From an uncultured Porphyromonadaceae bacterium (lineage in GTDB: Bacteria > Bacteroidota > Bacteroidia > Bacteroidales > Muribaculaceae), in assembly GCA_946187345.1 (NCBI GenBank), contig CAMHQD010000003.1, positions 1 to 64,000 on the forward strand: a stretch of 64,000 bases of DNA, in the 5' to 3' direction. Under the pieces are notes generated by a model that searched no databases, was not told the origin of the DNA, and saw nothing but the letters and a program-made list of their open reading frames with translations. The position numbers and the translations under genes were made by a program. Every line of letters begins with the position of its first letter. Within the stretch, counting starts at the first letter, position 1. Shown one piece after another: positions 4,139 to 56,853 of the stretch.

Positions 4139-4172
4139 CTCTCCCGCCCTCTCCTTTAGGAGGGGTGTGGTA
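4139..4172. repeat. CTCCTTTAGGAGGGG palindromic repeat copy
   Basis: Contains ctctcctttaggaggggtg immediately after the kinase stop. It belongs to the family seen at 12529-12570, 21191-21217, 22871-22896, 36553-36661, 43771-43808 and, inside a gene, 45413-45490. The CCTCC/GGAGG arms can form a short hairpin. Confidence 0.65.
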
Positions 4173-7411: not shown

Positions 7412-8349
7412 AGAAGGTGACAATAATATTGCCGGCTTATAACGAGGAGGCTTCGATGGACAGGCTGCGGGAGTGCATGGACAGCGTGGTGCGCGACAAC
7501 CCGGCATATGAGTGGGAATTTCTGCTGGTGAACGACGGCAGCACCGATAACACCCTGCAGCAGATGATCAGGCTTCACAACGAGGATCCGCATTATAGTT
7601 ATGTGGACCTCTCGCGCAACTACGGCAAGGAAATCGCGATGATGGCCGGTTTTGACTATGCGACGGGCGACGGTGTGATTATAATGGATGCCGACATGCA
7701 ACATCCGGTTGATGTGATTCCGGAGATGCTGCGTTGGTGGGAAGAGGGCTACGACGACGTGTATGCCACGCGCAAGAATAGTGGTGAGACGTGGTTCAAG
7801 CGCAAGACATCGCAGTGGTATTACGGCCTGCTGCAGTCGTTCACCAACATACCCATCCAGCGTGACACGGGTGACTTCAGGCTGCTGGACCGCTCGTGTG
7901 TTGACGCGCTGCGGCGCATGCGCGAGGTGGAGCGCAATACCAAGGGCATGTACTCATGGATTGGCTTCCACAAAAAGGGTATAACCTATGAGCAGCAGCA
8001 GCGTCAGCAGGGCAAGTCAAAATGGAGTCTGATGGCGCTGGTGAACCTCGCGCTGAACGGCTTCACGTCTTACACCACCGCGCCGCTGCGCATGGCTTCG
8101 GTGATGGGACTGATAGTGTCATTAGTGGCATTTATCTATCTTATTTATATCATTATTGTCACTAATGTATATGGTGAGCCTGTCCAGGGCTATCCAACGA
8201 TTATGGTAACGATGCTCTTCTTGGGCGGCGTGCAACTGCTCAGTCTGGGCATCATCGGCGAGTATCTGGGCCGAGTGTTCAACGAGGTGAAAGGCCGTCC
8301 GGGCTACTTCATCAATTCCTATAACGGCACCCGCGAGCATGTCAATTAA
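7408..8349 (+). CDS. GT2 glycosyltransferase, polyprenyl-phosphate sugar synthase type (GtrB/ArnC/DPM1-like)
   Basis: 313 residues. The N-terminal GT-A domain has ILPAYNEEAS, VNDGSTDNT, the metal-binding DADMQHP and the acceptor-region motif DTGDFRLLDR. Two C-terminal membrane helices (about 230-255 and 265-290) are typical of enzymes that transfer a sugar to undecaprenyl/dolichyl phosphate. It likely makes a lipid-linked monosaccharide for the membrane GT87 enzyme encoded next. The start overlaps the deacetylase stop. Confidence 0.93.
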   Translation: MKKVTIILPAYNEEASMDRLRECMDSVVRDNPAYEWEFLLVNDGSTDNTLQQMIRLHNEDPHYSYVDLSRNYGKEIAMMAGFDYATGDGVIIMDADMQHPVDVIPEMLRWWEEGYDDVYATRKNSGETWFKRKTSQWYYGLLQSFTNIPIQRDTGDFRLLDRSCVDALRRMREVERNTKGMYSWIGFHKKGITYEQQQRQQGKSKWSLMALVNLALNGFTSYTTAPLRMASVMGLIVSLVAFIYLIYIIIVTNVYGEPVQGYPTIMVTMLFLGGVQLLSLGIIGEYLGRVFNEVKGRPGYFINSYNGTREHVN

Positions 8350-8376
8350 TTGTGAATTATGAATTGTGAATTGATA
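8346..8376 (+). repeat. GAATTATGAATTGTGAATTG tandem repeat supplying a start codon
   Basis: TTAATTGTGAATTATGAATTGTGAATTGAT spans the stop of the GT2 gene and the first codons of the GT87 gene. Similar units are found at 38797-38829 and 63089-63107, and a diverged one at 48580-48600. The ATG within the repeat is the predicted start of the GT87 gene. Confidence 0.65.
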
Positions 8377-12425: not shown

Positions 12426-12570
12426 TAGCATGTAGCACGTAGCACTGGGGGTTGGCCATGCCGCGCCCCCAGGCGCCGGCCATCTAACATCTAACATCTA
12501 ACATCTATTAGTATACTTCCCTATAGCAACAGCAAGCCCCCCTCCTTTAGGAGGGGTGGGGGGGAGGCCA
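12426..12570. repeat. Composite intergenic repeat block
   Basis: Contains TAGCATGTAGCACGTAGCA units, then a GC hairpin region, then three CATCTAA units (about 12482-12506), and finally a copy of the CCCCTCCTTTAGGAGGGGTG palindrome (about 12537-12562) preceded by AACAGCAAGCC. The last part has a reverse-oriented relative at 36553-36600. No coding function is seen. Confidence 0.65.
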
Positions 12571-20468: not shown

Positions 20469-20553
20469 AGTAGATGTTAGATGTTAGATGGCAGCCACGG
20501 GGTGGCTGCAAACGGTCGTTAGTGGGCGTGGCGGTGTCCGCCCACCTTTAACG
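20469..20553. repeat. Double hairpin repeat block with TTAGATG units
   Basis: Contains TAGATGTTAGATG units, a perfect hairpin GCAGCCAC-ggg-GTGGCTGC (20491-20509), a second hairpin GTGGGCG...CGCCCAC (20522-20545), and another TTAGATGTTGGATG. It fills the gap between two minus-strand genes. Confidence 0.7.
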
Positions 20554-22870: not shown

Positions 22871-22896
22871 CCCTCCTTCAGGAGGGGTGGGGGAGA
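22871..22896. repeat. CCCTCCTTCAGGAGGGGTGG palindromic repeat copy
   Basis: A near-perfect CCCTCC-TTCA-GGAGGG hairpin between the lepB start and the mutS stop. It belongs to the same family as the in-gene copies at 45413-45490. Confidence 0.7.
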
Positions 22897-22900
22897 ACAA

Positions 22901-25621
22901 TCACAGATGCTTGCCGGTAACGATGCCCTTGATGCTGTTGAGTTTGTTGAGAGCCTCGATCGGCGTGAGGTTGTTCACGTCGAGGTTGATAATCTCGTCG
23001 CGGATTTGTTCCAGCACAGGGTCGTCGAGTTGGAACAGCGAGAGTTGGTAGCCGCTGCGGTGGGTGGCCACGTCGGCCAGATCTCGCGTGACGGTCACCT
23101 TGCCGCCCTCGCCACGGCTGGCCTGTTGCTCAAGTTGCTTGAGCACCTCGCCGGCGCGCGCCACAATGCTGGGCGGCATACCGGCCAACTTGGCCACGTG
23201 GATACCGAAACTGTGCTCGCTGCCGCCCTTGGCCAGAGTGCGCACAAACACCACCCGTCCGTCAATCTCCTTGACCTGCACGTTGTAGTTGACGATGCGC
23301 TTGAACGACTTCTCCATCTCGTTCAATTCGTGGTAGTGGGTGGCAAAGAGCGTCTTGGGGCGGCAGGGGTGCTCATGGATATACTCCACGATGGCCCACG
23401 CGATGGAGATGCCGTCATAGGTGCTCGTGCCGCGTCCCAATTCGTCGAAGAGCACAAGGCTGCGGTCGCTCAGGTTGTTGAGAATTGAGGCGGCCTCGGT
23501 CATCTCGACCATAAACGTGCTCTCGCCCAATGAGATGTTGTCGCTGGCGCCCACGCGGGTGAAGATTTTGTCGACGATGCCTACTTCGGCCTTTTCGGCC
23601 GGCACAAAGCAGCCAATCTGCGCCATGAGCGTGATTAGCGCCGTTTGGCGCAGCAGAGCCGACTTACCGGCCATATTCGGGCCGGTGATAATCATCACCT
23701 GCTGCCGCTCGCTGTCGAGGCTGATGTCGTTGGGCACATACCGCTCGCCCGGCGGCAACTGGCACTCGATGACGGGGTGGCGGCCGGCGGTGATAACGAG
23801 CCCGGTGCCATCGTTCAGCGTGGGGCGGTTGTAGCGGTTGTCGAGCGACACGCGCGTGAACGATAGCAGGCAGTCGAGTTGCGCCAGCACGTTGCAGTCG
23901 ACCTGAATGGCGGGGATATACTCGGTGGCGGCGGCCACTAATGAGGCAAAGAGTTGACCCTCGATGATGAGGATGCGCTCCTCGGCACCGAGGATTTTCT
24001 CCTCAAGCGATTTGAGTTCGGCGGTGATATACCGCTCGGCGTTGACCAGCGTCTGCTTGCGGGTCCAGTCGGCCGGCACCTTGTCACGGTGGGTGTTGCG
24101 CACCTCGATATAGTAGCCAAACACGTTGTTATAGGCGATTTTGAGGCTGGGAATACCCGTCTGCTCGCTCAAGTCGCGTTGCATCTGCATGAGCACGTCC
24201 TTGCTCGAGAATGCGATGTGCCGCAGTTCGTCGAGCGTCTGGTCCACACCGTCGCGGATCACATTACCGCGGTTCACCATATTCGGCGCGTCGGGGTTGA
24301 CCTCGCGCTCGATGCGGTCGCTGAGCAGGCGGCACTCGTTCAGGCGGTCGCCCATGGCCTGCAGCACGGTGCTCGACGAGTCGTCACACATTGCCTTGAC
24401 GGGCTCCACGGCGCGCAGGGCGGCGCGCAACTGCAGCATCTCGCGCGGCGTGACGCGTGCCGTCGACACGCGCGAGGCCAGTCGCTCCACGTCGCCGATA
24501 ACCTCAAGTTGCTTGACGAGCACGTCGCGGGCGGCATTGTCGCGCATAAACTGCTCCACGACCTCCAGGCGATTGTCGATGGCGTCGCGCTCCTTGAGCG
24601 GGAAGAGCAGCCACCGGTGCATCATGCGGGCTCCCATGGGGGTGAGAGTGCGGTCAAGCACGTCTAAAAGCGACTTGCCGTCGTCGCTCATAGGCTTGAT
24701 TAACTCCAGATTGCGCACGGTGAAGCGGTCCAGACGCACGTAGCGGTCGGCCTCGATGCGCGACAGCGTCGTGATGTGGGCCAACTGGGTGTGCTGCGTG
24801 AGGTCAAGATACTGCATTATCACGCCCGCGGCGACGATGGCCAGGTCCATATCCTCGACTCCGAAGCCTTTGAGCGACTGCGTCTCGAAGTGCCGCAGCA
24901 GCCTCTCTCGCGCCGTTGTCTCGACAAAGGCCCAGTCGTCCAGTTCCTGGGTGAGATATTGGTTGCCGAAGGTCTCGACAAACTGTCGCCGTGTGGAGCG
25001 CTCGATGAGCACCTCCTTGGGCGCGAAGTTCTCTAATAGTTTGCCCACATACTCGCGCGTGCCCTCGGCGGCGAGAAACTCGCCGGTGCTGATGTCCAGC
25101 AGCGACAACCCAACGCGGTTGAGGCCGTTGACGGTTGACGGTTGACCGTTGGCCGTTGGTGAAAAGTTGACCGTTGACGGTTGACGGTTGACCGAAGAGA
25201 GGGAAGAGGGAGTGCTGCGCCTGGCCGGATGGACTGCGGCCAGGAAATTGTTCTCCTTGCGGTCGAGGATCGGGCCGCCCACCACCACGCCGGGGGTGAC
25301 AAGTTCGGTGATGCCTCGCTTGACGAGTTTCTTGGTGAGTTTGGGGTCTTCGAGTTGGTCACAGATGGCCACGCGCTTGCCGGCGCGCACCAGTCGCGGC
25401 AGATATGTGTCGAGGGCGTGATGAGGGAAGCCGGCCATCTCGGTGTTGCCCGAGGCGCCGTTGCTGCGGCGTGTGAGTGTGATGCCGAGTATCTCGGCGG
25501 CGACAACCGCGTCGGCGGCATAGGTCTCATAGAAGTCGCCCACGCGAAAGAGAAGCACCGCGTCGGGGTGCTTCGCCTTTATCTGGTTGAACTGCCGCAT
25601 CATCGGCGTTTCATCGGCCAT
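22901..25621 (-). CDS. mutS: DNA mismatch repair protein MutS with a repeat-derived insertion
   Basis: 906 residues. The mismatch-recognition motif is VGDFYETY (the Phe-x-Glu pair, about residue 30). The ATPase has Walker [14 protein letters not shown] and Walker B/signature [17 protein letters not shown]. The C-terminal dimerisation helix-turn-helix is present. Between the mismatch domain and the connector domain, at about residues 133-168, is a low-complexity stretch ([19 protein letters not shown]...) that matches an intergenic repeat and accounts for the ~35 extra residues. The insertion keeps the frame and lies in a surface linker, so function is probably kept. Confidence 0.95.
25117..25195. 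repeat. GTTGACGGTTGACCGTTGAC repeat inside mutS
   Basis: Several tandem GTTGACGGTTGACC units in a row, in frame within mutS, encode two VNxQPSTVN-like peptides on the minus strand. The same DNA unit occurs in intergenic copies at 21094-21148 and 40043-40114. Confidence 0.8.
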
Positions 25622-30547: not shown

Positions 30548-30997
30548 TCAGAGATGGGTGGCGACGGTAGCGGTTTGTCCGGCGGTGGGGGTGAAGGTGA
30601 GCACAGCCCATTGTCCGGTGATTTGGCTATCAAAACGAATGGTGTGTGGGTAGCAGGTTGCTGTTTTAATGGTGGCACTGATGTCCATCGGTGTGGTTGT
30701 GGGTGAGTCGCCTCGTGCACCTTGTTTCTCTGTGATGGTGATGTTGGTGCCGGTGGTGGTGATGATGAGGTTGACGGTGTCGCCATCACTCATTGGCACG
30801 CCGCTGTGCCTGAGTTGAACCACGCCGTGGTCTACAGCGTTCAGGTGCAGTCGCGCGTCCACCCCGGCGGCAGGTGATGGCTCGCCCGCCACAATGACTG
30901 TGGTGGGTTGGTGCTGTCGTGGCGAGGCAAGCAGTAGCCATAATAACGCTATGGCTACCACTAATGCAATCACGCACACTTCGGTTGTCAGTTCCAT
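30548..30997 (-). CDS. Small membrane-anchored protein of unknown function
   Basis: 149 residues. One N-terminal membrane segment (VCVIALVVAIALLWLLLA) is followed by a Thr-rich, beta-strand-like soluble part (GDTVNLIITTTGTNITITEK) with a single later cysteine. It may be a single-pass inner-membrane protein with an external domain. Not recognised. It is flanked by a repeat upstream and by ~130 bases of AT-rich promoter region for the PorZ-like pair downstream. Confidence 0.55.
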   Translation of the reverse strand: MELTTEVCVIALVVAIALLWLLLASPRQHQPTTVIVAGEPSPAAGVDARLHLNAVDHGVVQLRHSGVPMSDGDTVNLIITTTGTNITITEKQGARGDSPTTTPMDISATIKTATCYPHTIRFDSQITGQWAVLTFTPTAGQTATVATHL

Positions 30998-31005
30998 CGT
31001 TTATT

Positions 31006-31195
31006 CGTTGAGAGGTTGAGGGTTGAGGGGTTGAGCCTCGCGCTGGCGCACTCGGGGAGATTAGTTCTGTTGCTATTTGCGGTCACGCTGTAGGGACGAG
31101 GCTTGCCTCGTCCTTTGTCAGACCATACATTTATTCCCATTTGCGTCAGCAAATGGCTCAACCCCTCAACGATCAACCCCTCAACCATTAAACCC
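31006..31195. repeat. Long inverted repeat, TTGAGAGGTTGAGGG family, with payload
   Basis: Left arm GTTGAGAGGTTGAGGGTTGA and right arm CTCAACCCCTCAACGATCAACCCCTCAACC enclose about 110 bases. Inside are hairpins CTCGCGCTGGCGCACTCGG, ACGAGGCTTGCCTCGT and CATTTGCGTCAGCAAATGG. The last hairpin matches the one at 53420-53440 with a different loop. It lies between pgi and the small membrane protein gene. Confidence 0.75.
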
Positions 31196-33521: not shown

Positions 33522-33591
33522 CGTCACCTACAGACTTATACATTATATAACCAAACCATCAAATTTTATTTCCACGCAATTTTTCCGGATT

Positions 33592-33697
33592 AATAGCGTG
33601 CCGTAACTCGATTTTTTTACCACTTACGGCACACTATTCTGGTGCTAATAGTGTGCCGTAACTCGATTTTTTTACCACTTGCGGCACGTTATTCGGG
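33592..33697. repeat. Two tandem 51-bp hairpin units overlapping the symporter stop codon
   Basis: Each unit reads AATAG(C/T)GTGCCGTAACTC, ATTTTTTTACCACTT, (A/G)CGGCAC. The inner GTGCCGTAA/TTACGGCAC pairs form a hairpin with a T-rich loop. Units begin at 33592 and 33647, a 55-bp period. The downstream unit runs over the last codon and stop of the symporter gene (33689). A terminator role is possible. Confidence 0.8.
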
Positions 33698-35140
33698 TCG
33701 GCGGCATAGTGCCAGGCCAATCATGGTGAGGGCGGCGTTGAGCAGCAGCAGTTCGAAGCCGATGGTGTAGTCAAACTGCTCCTTGAGCCACCACTGGATG
33801 GCATAACTGAGCACCGGCGCGGCGACGCACACCGCGGGCACCAGCCGGTCGCGCACCGGGCCACGGAACATCATGCCGTAGGCAAACAGGCCGAGGATTG
33901 GGCCGTAGGTGTAACTGGCAATCGAATAGACCGCGCTGATAGCGTCCTGGTCGCTGATGGCATAGAACACGAGAATCACAAGACCCATACACACCGCCAT
34001 GCCGATGTGCACCACGCGCCGCGTGCGGGCCAGCCGACGGTCGTCGTTCTGCTTGTCGGTGCCGAGGATGTCGACCGTAAACGAGGTCGTCAGGGCCGTC
34101 AACGCCGAGCCGGCCGCGCTATAGGCCGCGCTCACCAATCCCAGAATGAACAGCACGCCCACAACCACAGGCACCGGACCGCCACTGAAAGCAACCAGGC
34201 CAAAGAGTTCGTCGGTCTTGTCGGGCACGACAAAGCCCGCCTGGCGCGTGTAGAGCACTAATAGCGTGCCTAAAACAAGGAAAAGCCCAACTACAAACAC
34301 CTGCACGATGCCGCTCACGATAAGGCCCTTCTTGCTCTCGTCAACGTTCTTGCTGGCCAACGTGCGCTGCATCAAGTCCTGGTCGAGGCCGGTGGTGGCG
34401 ATGACCATAAAGATGCCGGCCACAAACTGCTTCCAGAAGTAGGTGCCCTCTTTGGGATTGTCAAAGAAGAAGATGCGCGACGTGTCGTCGGCCGCCACCG
34501 CGCCGCACAACTCGCCCACGCCATATCCCAGCGCGCGTGCGATAAACACGATGCAGAGCACCACGCTCATGATCAGGCAGAAACTCTTCAGCGTGTCAGT
34601 CCAAATCACCGTCTTCACGCCGCCCTGCAGCGTGTAGAGGAAAATCAAGGCGATGGTGGCTATCACGTTCACCACAAACGGGATGTGTAGCGGGCCGAAC
34701 ACCAGCAACTGCAACGTGACGCACACCACATAGAACCTGACGGCCGCGCCCAGCATCTTGCTGATGAAGAAGAACCACGCGCCCGTGCGGTGAGTCCCTT
34801 GGCCGAAACGTTGCTCGAGGTAACCGTAGATGGATACCAGGTTGCGCTTGAAGAAGAGCGGCATCAGCACATAAGCAATCACAAAGTAGCCCACGACAAA
34901 GCCCAGCACCATCTGCATGTAACTGAAACTCTTGACGGCCACCTGGCCGGGCACGCTCACGAAGGTCACTCCCGAGATGGGAGCGCCAATCATCGCGATG
35001 GCCACGATGAACCACGGTGCCTGGCGGCCGCCGGTGAGTGCCGTGCGGTCGTCGCTGCCGCGCGAGGCCAACCACGAGATAAGAAACAACACGGCAAAGT
35101 AGCCGATAATCGTCAATAAAACAATAACTGGTGTTGACAT
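33689..35140 (-). CDS. Sodium:solute symporter family transporter
   Basis: 483 residues with about 13 hydrophobic segments, as in the SSS family. APISGVTFVSVPGQV and YGYLEQRFGQGTHRTGAWFF are family blocks in the first bundle, and LVSAAYSAAGSALTALTTSFTVDI is the conserved SSS core. The substrate (sugar, sialic acid, amino acid or other) cannot be read from sequence. DUF1343/NamZ upstream on the same strand is a glycosidase-like protein, so an amino-sugar such as MurNAc is an attractive but unproven substrate. Confidence 0.92.
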   Translation of the reverse strand: MSTPVIVLLTIIGYFAVLFLISWLASRGSDDRTALTGGRQAPWFIVAIAMIGAPISGVTFVSVPGQVAVKSFSYMQMVLGFVVGYFVIAYVLMPLFFKRNLVSIYGYLEQRFGQGTHRTGAWFFFISKMLGAAVRFYVVCVTLQLLVFGPLHIPFVVNVIATIALIFLYTLQGGVKTVIWTDTLKSFCLIMSVVLCIVFIARALGYGVGELCGAVAADDTSRIFFFDNPKEGTYFWKQFVAGIFMVIATTGLDQDLMQRTLASKNVDESKKGLIVSGIVQVFVVGLFLVLGTLLVLYTRQAGFVVPDKTDELFGLVAFSGGPVPVVVGVLFILGLVSAAYSAAGSALTALTTSFTVDILGTDKQNDDRRLARTRRVVHIGMAVCMGLVILVFYAISDQDAISAVYSIASYTYGPILGLFAYGMMFRGPVRDRLVPAVCVAAPVLSYAIQWWLKEQFDYTIGFELLLLNAALTMIGLALCRRPE

Positions 35141-36552: not shown

Positions 36553-36661
36553 ATCCTCCCCCCGCCCCTCCTAAAAGAGTGGGAGGCTTGCTGTTGTTTT
36601 AGGAGAGAAATATGAGAAATATGAGAACCAGACACCCTTCCTTATAAGATGGGTAGGGGGG
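36553..36661. repeat. Two diverged CCCTCCTxxAAGGGTGGG repeat copies around an ATATGAGAA repeat
   Basis: First copy: a CCCCTCCTAAAAGAGTGGGAGG segment with GCTTGCTGTTGTTTT after it (reverse relative of 12529-12560). Then AAATATGAGAAATATGAGAA. Then ACCCTTCCTTATAAGATGGGTAGGGGGG ending at the frr stop. All lie in the frr/NamZ gap. Confidence 0.6.
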
Positions 36662-38729: not shown

Positions 38730-38796
38730 TGCTATCGTGAAAAATTATCTTTATTATTATCGATTGTTCGATTATTCGATTGCTCGAATGTTCAAA

Positions 38797-38829
38797 ATTA
38801 TGAATTATGCATTATGAATTATGCATTAG
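38797..38829. repeat. GAATTATGCATTATGAATTATGCATT repeat
   Basis: AATTATGAATTATGCATTATGAATTATGCATTAG lies directly after the stop of the dehydrogenase gene (minus strand) and before the aminopeptidase gene. It is the same unit type as at 8346-8376 and 63089-63107. A TCGATTGTTCGATTATTCGATTGCTCG run precedes it at about 38759-38787. Confidence 0.65.
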
Positions 38830-40042: not shown

Positions 40043-40114
40043 GATGACCGTTTACCGTTTACCGTTTACAGTGCGTTGCCGTTCCGGTTAACGGTCAACG
40101 GTCAACAGCCAACC
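40043..40114. repeat. GACCGTTTACCGTTTACAG / GGTTAACGGTCAACGG inverted repeat
   Basis: Tandem ACCGTTT units on the left and ACGGTCAACGGTCAAC units on the right flank GTGCGTTGCCGTTCC. This is the most complete intergenic copy of the family that also appears in mutS. It lies between the divergent dehydrogenase and ssb genes. Confidence 0.7.
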
Positions 40115-43770: not shown

Positions 43771-43915
43771 TCTCTCCCCCCTCCAAAAGGAGAGGTGTAT
43801 AGGAGATGTGCTCTAAAACACAGAAAATAAAATATTTACGAAAATTCACGGAAATTCACGGGAGATTAATTTTCGGAAATTTTCGATAATTTTCGAGAGA
43901 TAAAAAACGTGAATT
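43771..43915. repeat. Composite repeat block before lptE
   Basis: Contains a CTCCCCCCTCCAAAAGGAGAGG copy of the CTCCTTTAGGAGGGG family (43771-43808), then AAAATTCACGGAAATTCACGG direct repeats, then a GAAATTTTCGATAATTTTCG palindromic tract. No gene is seen. Confidence 0.6.
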
Positions 43916-43923
43916 ATAAAGAA

Positions 43924-44439
43924 ATGAAAAAATACTTTGTACTTTGTACTTTGTACTTCGTACTTCTTCTTGTCACCGGCGGTTGCTTCAGTTATAAGTT
44001 CAATGGTGCCGCACTCGACTATAACGTCTATCGCACAATATCCTTCAGTGAGTTCCCCATCCGCTCCGCGCTGGTTTATCCGCCGCTGCAGCAACTCTTT
44101 GAAAACAAACTGATGGATATGGTGACCCAGCAGACACGCCTGCGGGTGCAGGACAATCCCAACAGTGACCTGCGCATTGAGGGGGAGATTACCGGCTATC
44201 AGTTGTCGCCGCAGGCCGTGGGCGAGGACGCCTATGCCACCAAGACGCGCCTGACAATCACGGTGCGCGTCAAGTATATCAATAACCGCAACGAGGCCCT
44301 GAGCAAAGACCAGACCTTTAGCGCCTACCGCGATTTCTCGTCCAGCCAGATGCTCACTGATGTGCAGGACGACCTGTGCAACCAGATCACGACCGACCTC
44401 ACCGACCTCATCTTTAACGCGACAATCGGCGATTGGTGA
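43924..44439 (+). CDS. lptE: LPS assembly lipoprotein LptE-like
   Basis: About 171 residues. Lipoprotein signal MKKYFVLCTLYFVLLLVTGGC has lipobox VTGGC. The mature part (FNGAALDYNVYRTISFSEFP, then TRLRVQDNPNSDLRIEGEITGY) matches the Bacteroidetes LptE family, the outer-membrane partner plugging the LptD LPS transporter. The hydrophobic core is encoded by four tandem TACTTTG-type repeats. The ORF track start (GTG at 43909) lies upstream; the ATG at 43924 gives the signal peptide. Confidence 0.88.
   Translation: MKKYFVLCTLYFVLLLVTGGCFSYKFNGAALDYNVYRTISFSEFPIRSALVYPPLQQLFENKLMDMVTQQTRLRVQDNPNSDLRIEGEITGYQLSPQAVGEDAYATKTRLTITVRVKYINNRNEALSKDQTFSAYRDFSSSQMLTDVQDDLCNQITTDLTDLIFNATIGDW
43931..43967 (+). 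repeat. GTACTTTGTACTTTGTACTTCGTAC tandem repeat inside lptE
   Basis: Four 9-base-type units (TACTTTG/TACTTCG) encode the signal peptide core FVLCTLYFVLLL. Related AAGTACGAAGTGCTAAGCAC sequence occurs in the intergenic region at about 58503-58530. Confidence 0.75.
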
Positions 44440-44444
44440 AACAC

Positions 44445-44497
44445 GGGGACGGTTCTTCTGTTTCAGCAACAAGTAGTGAAACAGAAGAACCGTCCCC
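44445..44497. repeat. Perfect 21-bp inverted repeat (REP-like)
   Basis: Arms 44445-44465 (GGGGACGGTTCTTCTGTTTC plus A) and 44477-44497 are perfect reverse complements around an 11-base loop. It begins six bases after the lptE stop. The motif type resembles the REP sequences mobilised by IS200-like tyrosine transposases; no transposase is in the window. It can also serve as a hairpin terminator. Confidence 0.85.
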
Positions 44498-44533
44498 ACC
44501 CGGAGGCCTCCTCCGACCAACGAAAAACTAAAA

Positions 44534-45772
44534 ATGAAAAACGAAATGAAAGCGGAGTTTGTCGATAGCATACGGCGGTTGCTGCCGGTGGACGACGCGG
44601 CGGCGTTGCTCGATGCGCTTGCCGAAGGCGAGCCCACGGTGAGCGTGCGCGTCAACACGGCGCGCGGCGCCACTGTGCCCGACGGTGTCACGCGTGTGCC
44701 GTGGTGCCCCGAGGGCTACTATATCGACGGCGAGCGCCCGCAGTTCACTTTCGACCCGCTTTGGCACAGCGGCATGTACTATGTGCAGGATGCCTCGTCG
44801 ATGTTCATCTCCCACGTCATCCGGCAAGTTGTCGACAGGCCGGTGAACTACCTCGACCTCTGCGCCGCGCCGGGCGGCAAGGCTACCGCCGCACTGCAGG
44901 CACTGCCCGCGGGCTCACAAGTCGTGGCCAACGAGGTAGTGCCGCAGCGCGCTCTCGCCCTCAGCGACAATGTCACGCGCTGGGGCGCGCCGGGCGCGAC
45001 GGTCACGCGCGAGCAGCCTCGCGCCTTCGGCCGGATGGCAAACACGTTTGACGTCATCGCCACCGACGTGCCGTGCAGCGGCGAGGGCATGATGCGCAAG
45101 GACGACCAGGCCGTCGACCAATGGTCGCCGGTACTCGTCAAGCAATGCGCCGACACGCAGCGGCAAATCCTGCGCGACGTGTGGCCGGCCCTCAAGCCAG
45201 GCGGATTGCTCATTTACAGCACTTGCACCTTCAACCGCGAGGAGAATGAACTCATGCTCGACTACATCGCCGGCGAACTCGGTGCCGAGAGTGTCGCCGT
45301 GCCAATCGACCCGGCGTGGAATATTGCGCCCGGTATAGATACAGACCGCCCCTGCTACCGTTTCATGCCACACCGCACTCGCGGCGAAGGTCTCTTCATG
45401 GCCGTGCTGCGCAAAGCCCCCTCCTTTAGGAGAGGGATGGTGGAGGCCAGAAGTAAAGCCCCCTCCTTTAGGAAGGGGGTGGGGGAGGTCACTACACGTC
45501 GCCCCGACCCGGCGTTAGCCTATAGCCTCACCGCCGACCGCAACGCCTGGCCACCGGCCGATGTGGACTATCCAACCGCTATCGCCTACCTGCGCGGCGA
45601 AGCCCTCATCCTGCCGCCCGATGTGCCACGCGGCATCGTGCTCGTCACCTATCGCGGTGCCCCACTCGGCTTTGCCAATAACATCGGCTCTCGCGCCAAC
45701 AATCTTTACCCCAAGCCCTGGCGCATCACCGGCAGCCACGCGCCGGCCGCCGCTCCCCGCGTCATCGACTGA
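44534..45772 (+). CDS. RsmF-type RNA (cytosine-C5) methyltransferase with repeat-derived insertion
   Basis: 412 residues. The SAM-binding motif is YLDLCAAPGGKATAALQAL. The catalytic cysteine motifs are ATDVPCSGEGMMRKD (motif VI PC) and YSTCTFNREENE (motif IV TC). It makes m5C in rRNA or tRNA, probably 16S rRNA as for RsmF. The C-terminal PUA-like domain (LTADRNAWPPADVDYPTAIA) is preceded at residues ~294-321 by two peptides KAPSFRRGMVEA and KAPSFRKGVGEV encoded by an intergenic palindromic repeat, in frame, at the interdomain linker. Function is probably retained. Confidence 0.94.
   Translation: MKNEMKAEFVDSIRRLLPVDDAAALLDALAEGEPTVSVRVNTARGATVPDGVTRVPWCPEGYYIDGERPQFTFDPLWHSGMYYVQDASSMFISHVIRQVVDRPVNYLDLCAAPGGKATAALQALPAGSQVVANEVVPQRALALSDNVTRWGAPGATVTREQPRAFGRMANTFDVIATDVPCSGEGMMRKDDQAVDQWSPVLVKQCADTQRQILRDVWPALKPGGLLIYSTCTFNREENELMLDYIAGELGAESVAVPIDPAWNIAPGIDTDRPCYRFMPHRTRGEGLFMAVLRKAPSFRRGMVEARSKAPSFRKGVGEVTTRRPDPALAYSLTADRNAWPPADVDYPTAIAYLRGEALILPPDVPRGIVLVTYRGAPLGFANNIGSRANNLYPKPWRITGSHAPAAAPRVID
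45413..45490 (+). repeat. Two in-frame copies of the CTCCTTTAGGAGGGG palindrome inside a gene
   Basis: Copies 45413-45448 and 45455-45490, spaced exactly 42 bases (14 codons), each beginning AAAGCCCCCTCCTTTAGGA and ending GGTGGAGGCC or GGGGGAGGTC. They are near-identical to intergenic copies such as 12537-12562. Confidence 0.9.
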
Positions 45773-55859: not shown

Positions 55860-55899
55860 TTAGCGTTGAGGGGTTGAGCCTCTCAACTCTCAACTCTCA
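55860..55899. repeat. TTGAGGGGTTGAGCC / CTCAACTCTCAACTCTCAA copy
   Basis: GTTGAGGGGTTGAGCC followed directly by CTCAACTCTCAACTCTC. It forms the shortest member of the TTGAG family and touches the stop of the PCMD gene. Confidence 0.6.
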
Positions 55900-56853
55900 A
55901 TAGACAAGGGCGAAATTGTCGACCCAGAGAGTCATGCCGATAGTGCCCACAAAGGCTGTGCCGCAGCCGCTGCTGGCCATCACGAGCATATGGGTGGGGG
56001 TGGCGTTGGCGTCGTCCCACTTCTCTTCCACAACCGGAACCATCTTGCCCTTGCTGTTGCGCGCGCTGTAACTCTTGTCTTTGGGAATGAGCCCCATATA
56101 GGACTGGTAACCCTGATGCTTGGTGATGTCGCCATACCACACGGGGATGCGGTAGCCGTTGACCCAATTCTTGGTCGTCGCGCCCAGGCGGCGGCGGCCG
56201 GTGCCCACGCGTGCGGCGTGGATGTTACCTTTGGAGTCTTCCCAACGGCGCTGCAGGATGATATACACTTCGGCGAAATCACGGCCCAGGATTGTCTTCT
56301 TGGCGCTGAAGCCGGTACTTTGCGTGCGGTCTTCAAGCGGCGCGAGCAGTTTGTAGTCAAACTGCAACGCGGTGGGGCGGCCTGTGAACGGCACGCCCAT
56401 GTCGAGTTTGGCGTAAGGATTCTTGCTGCTGGTGATGGGCTCAATCATTCGGCCCAAGAAGATGCTGCCGCTCACGAGCACCTCGATGTTGATGATGCCG
56501 ATAGCCTTGGCCTTCTCGAGAATGGTGGTGAGTTTGGCACACTTGCCGGCGCCGCGCGCCTCGGGAAAAACGGCATTGCTCGTCTTGACAACGCCCATCA
56601 CTTTGGCATAGACGTTGCTCGAGGCCCAGGGCGAGCCGCCCTCGGGCACGTAAGCCTTGGCGCCGTTGATTGTCTTGGTGGGACCGATGGCATACACCGT
56701 CTTGGTGTTGCCGCCCAGCACGGCGCTCTCCTTGATGTTACGGGTCACCCAGTGATCCATGTCGCCAAACTTGATGGGCACGACCTTCTCGGCCGTGGCC
56801 GGCATTGTTGCCGCTGCGGCAATCACTGCCGCCATGATAAGAAATTTCTTCAT
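55897..56853 (-). CDS. PCMD-domain secreted protein (putative carbohydrate metabolism domain)
   Basis: 318 residues. The signal peptide is MKKFLIMAAVIAAAATMPATA. The mature protein has the PCMD pattern of an N-terminal GNTKTVYAIGPTKTINGAKAY block, FTGRPTALQFDYKLLAPLED and the C-terminal GMTLWVDNFALVY, which is the family end motif. PCMD proteins occur in gut Bacteroidetes near polysaccharide-related genes; a ligand or substrate role is not established. It could be a surface carbohydrate-interaction protein. Confidence 0.85.
   Translation of the reverse strand: MKKFLIMAAVIAAAATMPATAEKVVPIKFGDMDHWVTRNIKESAVLGGNTKTVYAIGPTKTINGAKAYVPEGGSPWASSNVYAKVMGVVKTSNAVFPEARGAGKCAKLTTILEKAKAIGIINIEVLVSGSIFLGRMIEPITSSKNPYAKLDMGVPFTGRPTALQFDYKLLAPLEDRTQSTGFSAKKTILGRDFAEVYIILQRRWEDSKGNIHAARVGTGRRRLGATTKNWVNGYRIPVWYGDITKHQGYQSYMGLIPKDKSYSARNSKGKMVPVVEEKWDDANATPTHMLVMASSGCGTAFVGTIGMTLWVDNFALVY

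Follow-up and report, generated by a model that had tools for sequence, protein, structure and literature searches.

How does a palindromic repeat that is otherwise found mainly between genes come to lie twice, in frame, within the gene for a conserved RNA-modifying enzyme? We examined this question in rsmF, a gene contained in a stretch of 64,000 nucleotides (the window) of a 2.79 Mb rumen Muribaculaceae MAG. The initial annotation had placed two 36-base copies, 14 codons apart, within this RsmF-type gene, and had located their KAPSFR-type peptides at the linker between the methylase and PUA-like domains. Both statements held at the coordinates that follow.

44437..44500, + strand: palindrome of a second, unrelated family (GGGGACGGTTCTTCTGTTTCA...TGAAACAGAAGAACCGTCCCC), in the spacer before rsmF
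44519..44546, + strand: 7-mer array (AACGAAA)n, extending into the start of rsmF; the sister genome has a similar array within its rsmF linker
44534..45772, + strand: RsmF-type 16S rRNA m5C methyltransferase gene, 412 aa (Pfam PF17125, residues 7-87; PF01189, 106-293; PF13636, 349-398)
44849..45412, + strand: methylase domain (Pfam PF01189), its final codon abutting repeat copy 1
45413..45448, + strand: REP-like copy 1, AAAGCCCCCTCCTTTAGGAGAGGGATGGTGGAGGCC, translated KAPSFRRGMVEA
45455..45490, + strand: REP-like copy 2, AAAGCCCCCTCCTTTAGGAAGGGGGTGGGGGAGGTC, translated KAPSFRKGVGEV, starting 42 bp after the start of copy 1
45578..45727, + strand: PUA-like RNA-binding domain (Pfam PF13636), intact past the repeats; dN/dS downstream 0.23 versus the sister genome G109

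All three RsmF domains (N-terminal, RsmB/F methylase and PUA-like) score above the Pfam cut-offs, and the catalytic motifs PCSGEGM and STCTF are intact in the product. The two copies are in direct orientation, agree at 31 of 36 positions and are both read in frame, together encoding the peptide KAPSFRRGMVEARSKAPSFRKGVGEV. Copy 1 begins on the base after the last codon of the methylase match. In a structure model, pLDDT falls to about 50 at residues 301-320, versus mostly >90 in the domains on either side, and the repeat-coded linker is accordingly predicted to be disordered.

Alignment with homologues, proposed at the outset as a way of finding residues ~294-321 absent, gave a divided answer: the repeat peptide is missing from all 80 homologues, but a different and longer segment occupies its place in relatives, and a plain insertion at rsmF was rejected on that ground. 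In most orthologues of the genus this segment has about 80 residues (about 84 in L083), versus 33 in the source genome. In the model of one relative (L071) part of the segment folds confidently, and this part can be aligned to the solved structure 3M4X. Pfam's first C-terminal domain hits it weakly and below the cut-off, in a single relative. Most members of the genus, and 3M4X, have this first C-terminal domain ahead of the PUA-like domain; it is absent from the source genome, from L070 and from Prevotella-type homologues. Since the Prevotella-type homologues also do without it, a shorter form of RsmF is viable. The sister G109 likewise lacks the folded domain, and at short distance we found no empty rsmF site. 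Because source and sister both lack a domain that most relatives have, the rsmF repeats are best read as replacing it, or as bridging its loss.

The sister's linker is built from other material: first the palindrome GGGGACGGTTCTTCTGTTTCA...TGAAACAGAAGAACCGTCCCC, then 7-mers of the GAAAAAC type. This palindrome forms a separate family with 179 matches in G109 and 59 in the source genome (both strands, ≤3 mismatches). In a third species, L139, an AATGCAC 7-mer array stands at the start of the rsmF linker and the folded domain is still there. Periodicity exceeded our threshold in 2 of 75 rsmF linkers (the sister's and that of L139), versus 1 of 525 control windows.

The 36-mer is far from unique to rsmF, as a genome-wide count of copies made clear. 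With ≤2 mismatches allowed, the repeat core CTCCTTTAGGAGGGG has 10 matches in the window versus 0.03 expected, and the copies that had been reported near 4139, 12529 and 22871 were recovered among them. The window copies outside rsmF include the following.

4151..4165, + strand: repeat core, intergenic copy
12542..12556, + strand: repeat core, in the stretch before a gene
22873..22887, + strand: repeat core
36565..36579, - strand: repeat core, at the 5' edge of a minus-strand ORF
43778..43792, - strand: repeat core, intergenic; G109 has other repeats in the same spacer

Across the genome, the core has 103 forward and 105 reverse matches (9 and 5 for a reversed control), totals in which palindromic places are counted on both strands and which thus correspond to about 100 places. 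The consensus of 103 copies comprises a C-rich arm, a TTYA loop, a G-rich arm and a GGGGAGG-type tail, in a unit of about 36 bp; the tail accompanies 71 of 103 copies versus 2 of 100 shifted control positions. Inverted pairs 38-48 bp apart (about 45 bp) are common among the copies; the rsmF pair is direct. With its short palindromic unit, high copy number and location mostly between genes (16 of 103 copies lie in genes), the repeat has the characteristics of a REP element. The GTAG and CGTC tags were not enriched at it (GTAG 7 and CGTC 16, both strands of 103 copies, versus 15 and 37 in 100 shifted controls). Among 101 genomes of the genus scanned, the repeat is numerous only in the source genome and in G109, which holds about as many copies; eight genomes have 1-7 matches and 91 have none. 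Among the papers available, the core string occurred in two, a mouse and an Arabidopsis study, and in no bacterial description.

In-frame copies occur in other genes throughout the genome, which rules out reading rsmF as a single-gene oddity. Requiring coding-type codon usage on both sides of the repeat, and adding two genes from a reciprocal search, we found in-frame repeats in 11 genes (16 of 103 examined copies): RsmF, Mfd, GT2, GltX, DsbD, GH31, SpoIIE/PP2C (two sites), ValS, TMEM43-like, GT9-like and a membrane protein. These counts are a lower bound, as only the stretches around listed repeat copies were read, and since the cases were selected through their open frames they give no rate of frame-preserving versus frame-breaking copies. 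The GT9-like glycosyltransferase and the membrane protein, named from a reading of their sequences and not from Pfam, fell short of the codon-usage threshold and are the two that the reciprocal search added. Four of the six reading frames of the repeat are open and all four are used in genes, the other two containing stops; APSFR(R/K)G and SPxPLLKEGE recur among the encoded peptides. Slot-bearing genes remain under selection on both flanks of the repeat: dN/dS (Nei-Gojobori, source versus G109) was 0.04-0.47 upstream and 0.00-0.36 downstream of the slots, no tested slot reaching 0.5 on either side.

Comparing 13 such slots between the source genome and G109, we found the same repeat in three, a different repeat or orientation in seven, unassigned filler in two and native sequence in one.

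Same repeat in both genomes: PP2C site 1, GT9-like, membrane protein
Different repeat, or the same family reversed: RsmF, Mfd, GT2, GH31, PP2C site 2, TMEM43-like, AMP-binding synthetase
Filler in G109 not assignable to a repeat: GltX, DsbD
Native sequence in G109: ValS

The AMP-binding synthetase slot was found from the G109 side, and the source genome has a 7-mer array there. The repeats that fill G109 slots have further copies elsewhere, and in the more distant genomes G027 and G033 the slots are short or native. Repeat-derived inserts in genes are rare (among the 45 ORF pairs of the window, source versus sister, only rsmF carries one), and independent random hits therefore do not explain why slots coincide between the sisters; the shared sites may reflect a common tolerance, or an older insertion that was later overwritten. 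Several intergenic spacers differ between the sisters just as the slots do, while others are conserved, and since spacers turn over in the same manner the slots can be read as the coding counterpart of intergenic spacer. In ValS, about 34 bp of repeat replaces about 19 bp of the sister's native sequence with no target duplication evident by eye, a junction that looks more like the product of repair or recombination than of clean transposition.

Taken together, we think it likely that a non-autonomous REP-like repeat has spread to about 100 places, is tolerated in frame in linkers, and occupies slots that have been overwritten repeatedly. The 36-mer would be a palindromic repeat dispersed within this lineage, and because four of its six frames are open, copies that land frame-neutrally in a tolerant loop or inter-domain linker would persist and be read out as a flexible peptide, either charged or rich in Gly and Pro. 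At the rsmF slot, a former C-terminal domain would have been lost, with the repeat-coded peptide now bridging the methylase and PUA domains. Such slots would be constrained only to remain open and in frame, and could be rewritten by whichever repeat family is active, whether REPs, other palindromes or 7-mer arrays. We infer that the slot-bearing proteins are made, that the repeat peptide is neutral, and that arrival of the repeat preceded or accompanied the loss of the domain. A broader proposition, to which we give somewhat less than an even chance, is that the genomic repeat pool continually overwrites DNA under no constraint, including that of protein linkers, such that core-enzyme slots change wholly between sisters only modestly apart at synonymous sites and a slot can be the route by which a domain is lost; linker replacement would then be a standing process and not an occasional insertion.

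The initial annotation had likened the rsmF case to the invasion of coding sequences by Rickettsia palindromic elements. Those elements occur in a different phylum and, judging from the literature, differ in sequence, and the unit of the present repeat is much shorter than that of RPE-1. The part of the analogy that stands is a dispersed palindrome translated in frame, here in at least 10 other genes; simple insertion at rsmF does not. What is shared, judging from the account of Ogata et al. cited in the available text of PMC3733652, is the translation of palindromes in frame within conserved, selected genes, a likeness by mode of occurrence alone. Nor are in-frame REPs special to Rickettsia, as the same text of Di Nocera et al. 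2013 (PMC3733652) defines two REP superfamilies by a GTAG or CGTC tag at one hairpin end and describes members lying wholly within ORFs of several bacterial species, often doubled, including in tRNA synthetase and repair genes, and at recB two Xanthomonas species carry different REPs in about the same position. The present repeat resembles these (PMC3733652) in being a short palindrome, mostly intergenic, sometimes in frame, often doubled and found in tRNA synthetase and repair genes, but it is untagged, occurs in a Bacteroidete, and lies in slots that swap between unrelated repeat classes including 7-mer arrays. CGTC repeats are listed there in Bacteroidetes, and the available text notes no intragenic Bacteroidetes cases. 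With in-frame REPs beyond Rickettsia already published there, what looks new is the Bacteroidetes case, the untagged repeat and the turnover of whole slots between unrelated repeat families.

REPINs and their RAYTs offer a further parallel, in high copy number, inverted pairs about 45 bp apart and the presence of Y1 transposase genes in the genome, and raise the possibility that a dedicated Y1 (RAYT-type) transposase moves the repeat, with slot occupancy reflecting its insertion preference for existing hairpins in place of general turnover. The frequent inverted pairs fit this reading, as do nine Y1_Tnp matches in the genome, 3 of which have a REP less than 300 bp away (p about 0.01). One of these genes (G000:C82:8032-8484) is identical at 451 of 453 nt to G109:C93:11248-11700, has a REP about 125 bp away in both genomes, and has a next best match in the genus of 53% among the matches listed; because the genomes are sisters, however, this co-occurrence counts for little. 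We nevertheless regard a dedicated transposase as unlikely. Unlike in REPIN systems, the present repeat does not clearly form the flanking inverted repeats of any Y1 gene: of eight genes compared, seven have different ones of their own and none were found for the eighth, while the repeat stands on both sides of only one (L068), outside another repeat. The C82 gene, with its own 39-bp flanking inverted repeats, was dropped as a candidate for the cognate transposase. Moreover, a transposase for the REP would not account for the 7-mer arrays in the same slots, and intergenic spacers turn over too.

Two observations on the Y1 genes deserve separate mention. The identity between the C82 and C93 genes is well above that of typical genes of the two genomes and points to a recent transfer, or to a recent acquisition common to both. 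In addition, most of the Y1 genes L061-L068 (G000 contigs C82, C4, C15, C68, C120, C29 and C119) lie between long inverted repeats that differ in sequence from gene to gene, a hint that one genome holds several palindrome families, each with its own transposase.

It is quite improbable that the repeat is selected for a function within genes, for example by forming a hairpin in mRNA or supplying a useful peptide module. The GT9-like doublet, which is the same in both sisters over the stretch compared, would fit such a role, but other slots are wholly different between them and all four open frames are in use. An Rfam search with the element gave no match and the rsmF pair folded no better than shuffles (z -0.84), and on these results the reading of the repeat as an RNA element was rejected.

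Both genomes are MAG assemblies and repeats are classic misjoin points, such that a misjoin could have deleted the rsmF domain and made false in-frame repeats. This too is highly improbable: in 11 genes the reading frame stays open and in phase; the sister, which comes from a different sample, is independently without the rsmF domain and has the same downstream domain and synteny; three insertions are common to both genomes with identical junctions; the slot flanks are under purifying selection; and an ordinary read would cover more than the 84 bp of the rsmF pair. As for an ordinary low-complexity linker resembling the intergenic repeat by chance or base composition, relatives' rsmF linkers are indeed also Lys/Arg-rich and poorly conserved, but the excess of core matches in the window, the match of both rsmF copies to many others over at least 30 nt, the ten further genes with in-frame repeats and the GT9-like doublet, identical in the two genomes, leave this idea practically no chance.

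A repeat dispersed in this way makes it practicable to study, in bacteria abundant in the gut, how selfish or filler DNA provides proteins with new sequence. With sister genomes carrying different repeats in the same core-enzyme slots, the speed of linker replacement, the tolerant positions of proteins and the loss of domains through slots become measurable. Alignments of slot-bearing proteins call for caution, as they include repeat-derived segments without homology.

The 7-mer arrays that share slots with the palindromes have intergenic counterparts. Intergenic heptanucleotide repeats are known, for example TAACTGA repeats (PMC4679880); arrays of the present type likewise occur as direct repeats in spacers, but the 7-mers are many and different in these genomes and some are translated within genes. 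In the window, a tandem-repeat scan gave 7 as the most frequent period, and short tandem arrays of varied 7-mers (GTTGAGG, CATCTAA, GTTGACG, TACTTTG and others) lie mostly in spacers, at 1720-1747, 8348-8373, 12481-12507, 20471-20490, 25127-25192, 38796-38828, 40047-40069, 43933-43965, 44519-44546 and 55880-55900. Inverted composite repeats of about 75 nt, with GTTGAGG-type units around a small palindrome, occupy 1720-1870 and 30996-31193, with more than 20 similar places in G109. A unit of 53-55 bp occurs twice at 33591-33698, its copies being 91% alike, and contains the inverted repeat GTGCCGTAA...TTACGGCAC.
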